Shown piece after piece: positions 32,853 through 34,943 of a stretch of DNA of 34,943 bases. The position numbers were made by a program, and so were the translations under genes. How positions within the stretch are numbered: the stretch's first letter is position 1; the number at the start of each line of letters is the position of its first letter. This DNA is from a virus, in IMG/VR virus record IMGVR_UViG_3300032308_001181, positions 1 through 34,943 of that record; one strand, given 5' to 3'. The notes under the pieces were generated by a model that made no database searches, was not told the origin of the DNA, and saw nothing but the letters and a program-made list of their open reading frames with translations.

Positions 32853-33671
32853 ATGAATGCACCGTCTTTCGTCCCGGGTTGGGCTTCAATGCCTATTCCT
32901 GACGCTGAATATCACGCTCGACCCGAAGTCTCGTGTCATCAACTTCTAGACTTTGAACAAAGCCCGCGTTTGTACCGCGAGAAGTACATCACCCGAACCC
33001 TGAAGACTGACGTTACACCGGCCATGACCTTCGGCACCTTGTTTCATCAAGCGGTCTTGGAACCTAAAGAATACATGAAGCGGCCCGTAGGTCCTGAAGC
33101 CGGGAAGACGACGAAGGCTTGGCTTGAATTCAAAGCGAAGCACGAAGACGCGGTTCATTTTTACGACAATTATCAAATCACCGAAATGATCCACTCGATA
33201 TCTCAACACCCGGACGCTAACGCCATTATTTCAAAGGAAGATGCGAAGCGAGAACAAGTGGGTTTCGCGAACTTCGAAGGGGTCAACATGCGAATGAAAT
33301 GCGACATGGTGACTGACGATTTCATACTAGACCTCAAAACAACCTATGACTCCAGTGACAAGGCGTTCGGGTACGATGCCGATAAATACGGGTACTTGTT
33401 CCAAGCGACGGTCTACACGTCGTTAGCGGCGCTCATAGACGGCAAATACCGGAAGTTCTACATCATGGCGGTTGAGAAGACGGCACCTTACGAGGTCGCA
33501 ATTTATTCAATTCCCGATGCAGTCCTTGAAAAAGAATTTGATCGCTTTAAAACACTCGTTAAACAATTAAGGTTTTCGCGTGCTGAGAACAAGTGGAGTT
33601 TTAGAAACCCCCACGTCAAACCTATTTGGCTTACAAACTATTATTTTGAAAGGCTTTATGAAAACCTCTGA
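32853..33671 (+). CDS. RecE-like exonuclease (PD-(D/E)XK, PF12684-type)
   Basis: A 272-residue nuclease with RecE-family features: an N-terminal helix and FGTLFH65QAVLEP, MRMKCD151 followed by FILD160-L-K162, giving the D-(E/D)-x-K metal site, and Q184-A-T-V-Y188 as the Q-x3-Y element. Such enzymes digest one strand of double-stranded DNA ends, giving ssDNA for the annealing protein encoded next (overlap 14 bp). The pair acts like RecE/RecT in phage recombination. The ATG at 32853 follows aaaggaactaag. A ttgataaa element lies 50 bp upstream. Confidence 0.85.
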   Translation: MNAPSFVPGWASMPIPDAEYHARPEVSCHQLLDFEQSPRLYREKYITRTLKTDVTPAMTFGTLFHQAVLEPKEYMKRPVGPEAGKTTKAWLEFKAKHEDAVHFYDNYQITEMIHSISQHPDANAIISKEDAKREQVGFANFEGVNMRMKCDMVTDDFILDLKTTYDSSDKAFGYDADKYGYLFQATVYTSLAALIDGKYRKFYIMAVEKTAPYEVAIYSIPDAVLEKEFDRFKTLVKQLRFSRAENKWSFRNPHVKPIWLTNYYFERLYENL

Positions 33672-34425
33672 ACTCAATCTATACCAAAAAATAATTAGGG
33701 TTTATGAACAAGTCTCAACCGTAGTGAAGTACGACCACATTTCCGTGGGAAACAATAGCTATTCAGCGGTGTCTCACGATGCCGTCGTCAAAGCCCTTCA
33801 CGGCCCATTGGCTCAACATGGCATTGTGGTCATTCCTTCAATGCTTGAAGCGAAGATCGAACGCTATGAGAAGGAAAAAACCTACAACGGTCAAACGACA
33901 AAACAAGAATGGTTTCGCGCTGACTGTCATGTCTGCGTGAAGTTCGTCAATGCCGACAAGCCTGAAGAGAATTTCGTCACGGGTGTATGGTCTTATGCAC
34001 TTGATACTTCCGACAAAGCGATGGGAAAGGCTTACACCTACGCAATCAAAATGATTTATCTGAAGGTCTTCTTGCTTGAGAGTGCCGATCAAGAAGAACA
34101 ACGCATCTATGAACAAGAAGCGCCTAGACCTCAGACAAAGACCTACAATGAATCACGCGCACCTGAACCTTCACCCGTGAAGCCTAAGCCTGCGCTTGTA
34201 AACTATGCGCCACAATCGAATGGCGCAAAAACTGACTACGATGGTCCGATTTCTGACAAGCAAGTGAAGCGCATGTTCGCGATTGCTTATAAAAACAATT
34301 GGACGGCTCAAGACATAACGGCAAATATCTTAAAAAATTATGGTGTTGCACCTGAAAACTTGACCGCCAAGAAGTACGAAGAAGCCGTGAGCTTTTTTGA
34401 GGCAAATGAATCAATTCCATTTTGA
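33658..34425 (+). CDS. ERF-family single-strand annealing protein
   Basis: The protein has the ERF pattern: an N-terminal helix (MKTSELNLYQKIIRVYEQVS), ..NSYSAVSHDAVVKALHGPLAQHGIVVIP.. and the signature A114-L-D-T-S-D-K-A-M-G-K-A-Y-T-Y-A-I-K131..YLKVFLLE. It coats and anneals the single strands made by the RecE-like nuclease. The frame opens at 33580, but ATG 33658 has aagg and is the natural start (255 aa). Residues 150-200 are a proline-rich linker; 195-245 form a second small helical domain. The last residues E-A-N-E-S-I-P-F mimic the SSB C-terminal tip (..DDIPF). Confidence 0.85.
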   Translation: MKTSELNLYQKIIRVYEQVSTVVKYDHISVGNNSYSAVSHDAVVKALHGPLAQHGIVVIPSMLEAKIERYEKEKTYNGQTTKQEWFRADCHVCVKFVNADKPEENFVTGVWSYALDTSDKAMGKAYTYAIKMIYLKVFLLESADQEEQRIYEQEAPRPQTKTYNESRAPEPSPVKPKPALVNYAPQSNGAKTDYDGPISDKQVKRMFAIAYKNNWTAQDITANILKNYGVAPENLTAKKYEEAVSFFEANESIPF

Positions 34426-34453: not shown

Positions 34454-34822
34454 ATGACAAGGAAACAATGGAAAAGGCTCGCGAATAAATGCGCCAAGCG
34501 ATACTCCGAGGGTTTAAGTGTGAAGGAAATAGCTGACGAGCTAAACAAAAGCCATTTCAGGACGAGAAACGGCCTAGAATGGAACAGGACTCGACTTCAG
34601 GCGTTCTTCTACAATCAAGGTGTGAAGCTTCGAAAAGGTGTTTTCCGAAAACCCTATGAAGTACAAATCGAGTTTCCCGAAACTCAGACAACCTCAACGC
34701 CTCAAAAGACTCAAATTGATGAAGCAACGGATGCAATTAAACTGATTCAAACGGTGTTTCACTCTTCACTTCCGCACAAAAGACAAATAAAAATCGTTCA
34801 GGCCATTATCGAATCAACATAA
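34454..34822 (+). CDS. HTH DNA-binding protein of the early block (122 aa)
   Basis: A basic 122-residue protein. Residues 16-50 (YSEGLSVKEIADELNKSHFRTRNGLEWNRTRLQAF) resemble the helix-turn-helix seen in recombinases and small regulators, where a G-x-S-x-x-x-I-A-x-x-L-N stretch is typical. The C-terminal half is helical (..DEATDAIKLIQTVFHSSLPHKRQIKIVQAI). It lacks a catalytic recombinase domain, so I infer a transcription regulator or origin/recombination accessory. The ATG follows aaaggactgcacg. The TAA uses two bases of the terminal repeat and so crosses the assembly junction into the gene at 21. Confidence 0.75.
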   Translation: MTRKQWKRLANKCAKRYSEGLSVKEIADELNKSHFRTRNGLEWNRTRLQAFFYNQGVKLRKGVFRKPYEVQIEFPETQTTSTPQKTQIDEATDAIKLIQTVFHSSLPHKRQIKIVQAIIEST

Positions 34823-34943
34823 GACCAAAAAGGGGGGAACATGAGACGGTACGTTGAAAACAGGGCAACACTTGAAAATTGGATTCTACTGGGTGCAGGA
34901 AGCGCCTATTTTTTGATGGGTGACGTCAAAGGGCACCCCGAAC
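34821..34943. repeat. Terminal direct repeat, copy 2 (circular overlap)
   Basis: Identical to bases 1-123. It contains the RBS and first part of the gene at 21. Removing it closes the genome at 34,820 bp, with the HTH gene's stop joined to the next gene's leader. Confidence 0.95.

Follow-up and report, generated by a model that had tools for sequence, protein, structure and literature searches.

P22 Erf (PF04404) resembles the ERF protein analysed here in presenting an annealing core, an exonuclease neighbour, and a variable C-terminus after a linker; however, it ends in ...INELKQVA, while the protein analysed here ends in a tip similar to that of single-strand-binding proteins (SSBs). Bacterial and phage SSBs (PF00436) share with our protein a free hydrophobic-Pro-Phe C-terminus with acidic residues upstream but, unlike them, the ERF protein has no OB-fold, fewer acidic residues, and no long disordered tether. 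T7 gp2.5, to which the ERF protein can also be likened, anneals strands and binds partners through an acidic tail that ends in Phe, but is an OB-fold SSB, whereas the ERF protein has a RAD52-type fold. Lambda Redβ is an annealase with a three-helix C-terminal domain (CTD) and an adjoining exonuclease gene, as is the case here (for the domain, by model); however, it has a RecT/Redβ rather than an ERF core, and its CTD binds SSB as well as lambda exonuclease (PMC8303780), whereas the ERF protein displays a tip. A CTD like that of Redβ is common to several SSAP families according to a published analysis (PMC8093625), and the flexible C-terminal domain of the annealing protein ICP8 is reported to make protein-protein contacts (PMC12409425). 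The performance of phage annealing proteins in their host can depend on SSB contact, as described for Redβ (PMC8303780) and Sak4 (PMC5928155); specifically, Sak4 recombineering was reduced tenfold when the HK620 phage SSB lacked its last six residues (NDYPPF) (PMC5928155). Phage annealing proteins serve genome engineering, and an annealase with an SSB-type tip of its own, if true, would represent a natural example of a different host link.

The record analysed here, referred to in its full length of 34,943 bases as the window, carries a 123-base direct terminal repeat (positions 1-123 and 34821-34943), as is typical of a complete, circular assembly; the genome would be circular or terminally redundant. 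The two copies of this repeat are identical; in such an assembly, the HTH/recombinase-like gene at 34454-34822 is followed by the gene at position 21. The window terminase presented no match among phage records. The ERF gene and its neighbour include the following features:

32853..33671, + strand: PD-(D/E)XK exonuclease (DUF3799, exonuclease VIII-like); Pfam PF12684, E 3e-29; phrog_412 exonuclease VIII, 5e-46
33658..34425, + strand: ERF single-strand annealing protein, 255 aa; PF04404, E 5.5e-8; phrog_155, 2e-15; AlphaFold2 model matches RAD52
33658..34119, + strand: annealing core with RAD52 fold, residues 1-154; pLDDT 85-98 for most of residues 11-140
34120..34254, + strand: flexible linker, proline-rich, residues 155-199; pLDDT <60 for most residues, without secondary structure
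34255..34407, + strand: folded C-terminal domain, Redβ-like, three helices, residues ~200-250; pLDDT 88.8 in an AlphaFold2 model of the CTD alone
34408..34422, + strand: SSB-like C-terminal tip ESIPF, residues 251-255; recognised from the sequence, disordered in the model

The end of the exonuclease gene overlaps the start of the ERF gene by 14 nt; a DUF3799 exonuclease beside an ERF is the usual exonuclease/annealase pairing. The ERF protein scored 33.4 bits against PF04404, above the curated cut-off of 25, and its core, which contains a conserved motif around ALDTSDKAMGKA, presented a RAD52-type fold, with human RAD52 as the best Foldseek matches (E 1.2e-4 to 1e-3). A PDB sequence search with the ERF protein gave no match. 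Overall, the window ERF is a fairly ordinary annealing protein with a standard exonuclease partner. In the full-length model, which was obtained with AlphaFold2 and 32 viral homologues, pLDDT was <50 at linker residues 161-171 and 176-193, in agreement with the flexible proline-rich linker that the first-pass annotation had placed before the tip; that annotation had missed, however, the folded domain at residues ~200-250, which carries the tip. The three C-terminal helices were modelled at residues 200-212, 217-227, and 237-250 and, because this folded domain sits between linker and tip, the tip projects beyond a helix by only some five residues; its residues 253-255 had a pLDDT <50 in the full-length monomer model.

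The ERF translation ends in ...YEEAVSFFEANESIPF* (last ten residues FFEANESIPF), i.e., with a hydrophobic-Pro-Phe end bearing the free carboxylate. The initial description of an ERF with an IPF end preceded by an acidic residue thus stands for the 255-aa PF04404 protein and its ...ESIPF terminus, but IPF is immediately preceded by Ser, and the acidic residues are found at positions -5 and -8. With two Glu (net charge -2), the last ten residues contain fewer than three Asp/Glu; among 47 distinct SSB-type tips from related loci, the net charge was -2 or less in 7 and -3 or beyond in 40. Similar low-acid tips in ERF loci include EPNIPF, EDPNNIPF, and DDSIPF, as well as NNIPF on a PF00436 SSB. By its residues, the window tip falls among naturally occurring SSB-type tips, at the low-acid end of their range. 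An acidic-hydrophobic-PF end is expected by chance at about 2.7e-4 per ORF (~3 in 10,000, from the ORFs of ERF loci), corresponding to 0.04 such ends among 153 ERF tails and to ~1% of 45-gene phages with such an end on some gene, so scanning many windows would turn up cases. The tip may therefore be a chance C-terminus, with the last CTD helix ending five residues ahead of the stop codon and no partner involved; we consider this a serious possibility, only a little less likely than the reading favoured below. Against it, the tip is located on the one gene of the window where it would be sensible, at the low rate per gene given above. No second predicted gene in the window carries a tip, and the remaining PF-ending ORFs are 30-31 aa long and overlap other genes.

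None of the 44 ERF tails in a first homologue collection from viral contigs ended in PF. With additional scans, 112 ERF proteins were gathered by HMM, the majority from viral/phage loci with a few genome prophages, which represent 110 distinct tails by their last 25 residues; a PF end was found in 0 of these 110 viral/phage tails. With further genome prophages and phage records added, and the window itself not counted, the union contained 153 distinct ERF tails, two of which end in PF (the L215/L216 pair described below) and one in IF (L007). The relatives closest to the window ERF (L009, L011, L014, L116, and L118), which are 35-44% identical to it over the matched part, present a window-like core and short, tipless C-terminal tails; tails among the nearest relatives include ...IEAKNKR, ...IKAKGGR, and ...ISNAPKNK. 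ERFs with the longer C-terminal domain of the window are also tipless and end in ...GGNANV, ...GGTANV, or ...GGQDNA. The proposal that ERF homologues carry conserved (D/E)xIPF tails thus failed both for the nearest homologues that share the core and for ERFs that share the C-terminal domain, a lack of conservation that fits a chance C-terminus. The window lineage is known from one sequence, and conservation of the tip among relatives of its bearer was not observed; on present data, the tip appears to be private to this lineage rather than a family trait near the window phage. Another ERF tail (L046:972-1607) reads ...NEQPANEDLPEKSK, which resembles ...FEANESIPF; the window tip could have originated from an acidic-(I/L)P stretch like this one. 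The ERF of Rhodobacteraceae phage LS06-2018-MD06 (L007:1971-2441) ends in GKDDDDDDIF, an acidic-aromatic end reminiscent of T7 gp2.5. Viral contigs searched with single proteins (the window ERF, the exonuclease, and the L007 ERF) yielded no relatives, a portal search yielded only two distant contigs, both without an ERF, and a first genome scan yielded no relative; a nine-sequence alignment was too diverged for searching.

The two ERFs with a PF end are prophage-like, come from a class-level draw of genomes (G530 and G641), and are 65% identical to each other (L216:1234-2199, ending in DRDIDDCPF; L215:1141-2169, ending in GQNIDACPF); IDxCPF is kept in both, while the linker before the tip has diverged. 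Like the window protein, they combine an ERF core with a similar C-terminal domain, which precedes the tip and can be aligned with that of the window, and a PF tip. Unlike the window protein, they present the IDxCPF tip after a longer linker and have DUF932 and Gp157-like neighbours and no exonuclease; their core could not be aligned with the window core by BLASTP, indicating a distant ERF lineage. No SSB was found on the L215/L216 contig stretch read; one SSB, ending in DDDVPF, was found in each genome on another contig. Because this pair has one, the window is not alone in having an ERF with a PF tip, and conservation of such a tip in a distant pair suggests that it may be a small addition gained on more than one occasion; that a pair elsewhere keeps such a tip also argues against a chance C-terminus. 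The conserved tip on the L215/L216 pair, together with the position of the window tip within the natural SSB-tip range, makes the idea of a tip grafted onto an annealing protein plausible, despite its absence from the nearest homologues.

The first-pass annotation had noted that no SSB and no replication proteins are visible in this phage. In line with this, no match to the SSB OB-fold domain (PF00436) was found anywhere in the window genome and no SSB was found among ~30 window genes scanned against PHROGs/Pfam; no replication gene was recognised among the scanned genes, which cover the large structural genes in part. The same annotation had also suggested that the tip stands in for the missing SSB. 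However, of the 75 unique ERFs for which 2.5 kb or more of sequence was available downstream, 44 presented no separate tip protein in their locus, and these 44 loci include the nearest relatives of the window, whose ERFs are tipless; because many of the 75 loci are partial, this absence of a tip protein is tentative. Specifically, L011, L012, L014, L116, and L118 (mostly partial contigs) and Bdellovibrio phage phi1402 (L002), the genome of which was read whole, present tipless ERFs and no tip protein near erf. As close relatives without any such protein have tipless ERFs, replacement of a missing SSB is unsupported and was set aside; such phages evidently manage with no tip of their own and presumably rely on the host SSB. 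On L071 and L072, which are the same contigs as L009 and L010 and belong to phages close to the window by their ERF, an SSB-matching ORF appears to end in SFVGDNQKASE, without a tip.

The three-helix C-terminal domain of the window ERF appears, from its model, most like the Redβ CTD. The top VIA-align rows were 8tfu (Z 7.0; rmsd 3.0 over 62), which represents the Redβ CTD bound to a peptide from the SSB C-terminus, and 6m9k (Z 6.4), which represents the Redβ CTD with lambda exonuclease; Foldseek E-values were only 1.4-3.5, and the rows after Redβ had Z 4-5 (5.0 for 80α Sak). A PDB sequence search with this domain gave no match beyond weak chance matches, and Pfam matches of the C-terminal region to T6SS_Tse3_cat and DUF1657 were weak, below the cut-off, and judged spurious. 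As the best structural matches are a domain bound to an SSB peptide and to an exonuclease, the tip might bind the SSB-tip face of the Redβ-like CTD of its own or a neighbouring subunit, as would be consistent with SSB binding by the Redβ CTD (PMC8303780) and with the protein contacts reported for the flexible ICP8 C-terminal domain (PMC12409425). We regard such docking as unlikely, since the fold match is modest (Z under 8), the full-length monomer model shows a disordered tip, and a stretch of five residues after the helix may not be long enough for folding back on the same domain. That docking would control oligomer assembly or compete with host SSB for the CTD face is similarly improbable. 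A broader version, in which SSB-type tips were added independently to ERFs of SSB-less phages on top of a tip-reading Redβ-like domain, so that ligand and receptor are found in one protein and docking represents a switch that links annealing to repair and replication proteins of the host, also seems improbable to us.

These data are best read as an ordinary annealase with an SSB-type tip that is specific to its lineage and for which a function is plausible; the tip is real and rare and is not demonstrated as a new system. We tentatively favour, at a little short of an even chance, the view that host proteins recognising SSB tips also bind the window ERF tip, which would imitate the SSB C-terminus to a modest degree. 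The RAD52-fold ERF core would pair complementary single strands, as established for the family, and the Redβ-like C-terminal domain may, by analogy, dock on the exonuclease and/or host SSB; on this domain, the window phage lineage has acquired a short free SSB-type tip (ESIPF-COOH). An ERF oligomer would display many such tips, through which host proteins that recognise the SSB tip could be kept close to the strands being annealed. The tip would thus add to host SSB rather than replace a missing phage SSB. Mimicry is favoured because tip-like ends are rare and the only one in the window is located on a single-strand-annealing protein, and because ERF-borne tips recur (L215 and L216, with L007 ending in DDDDDDIF); the HK620 SSB result (PMC5928155) also supports tip-dependent help to phage annealing. 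It is weakened by the 0 of 110 viral/phage tails with a PF end, by the tipless nearest and same-CTD homologues, by the low acidity of the tip, and by the lack of a long disordered tether.

Elsewhere in the ERF loci, tip-like ends are found almost only on SSB-type proteins, and the listed examples are SSBs or small proteins encoded near erf. These small tip-bearing proteins present a linker and an acidic end, and several are not PF00436 proteins; the latter include DUF3127, weak DUF736-like and weak SpoVG-like proteins, and families without a Pfam match. The presence of tips on SSBs and on several families outside PF00436 suggests that the tip moves among different likely single-strand-binding proteins, i.e., that small tip motifs may move among unrelated proteins of this type in phages. 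Small tip proteins near erf without PF00436 over the cut-off include L016:10051-10392, L007:1119-1376, L019:7628-7981, L020:9651-9968, L039:1528-1848, and L044:10082-10360; recognised by their tips, such proteins are candidate unrecognised single-strand-binding proteins. Variant ends were also observed on SSB tips: PFN is found at the end of the tip in three phages (L078, L008, and L126), residues follow DDIPF in Pkon1 (L004:2579-3064) and L068, and the SSB of a Salinibacter phage (L231:676-1086) presents the tip DELPW.
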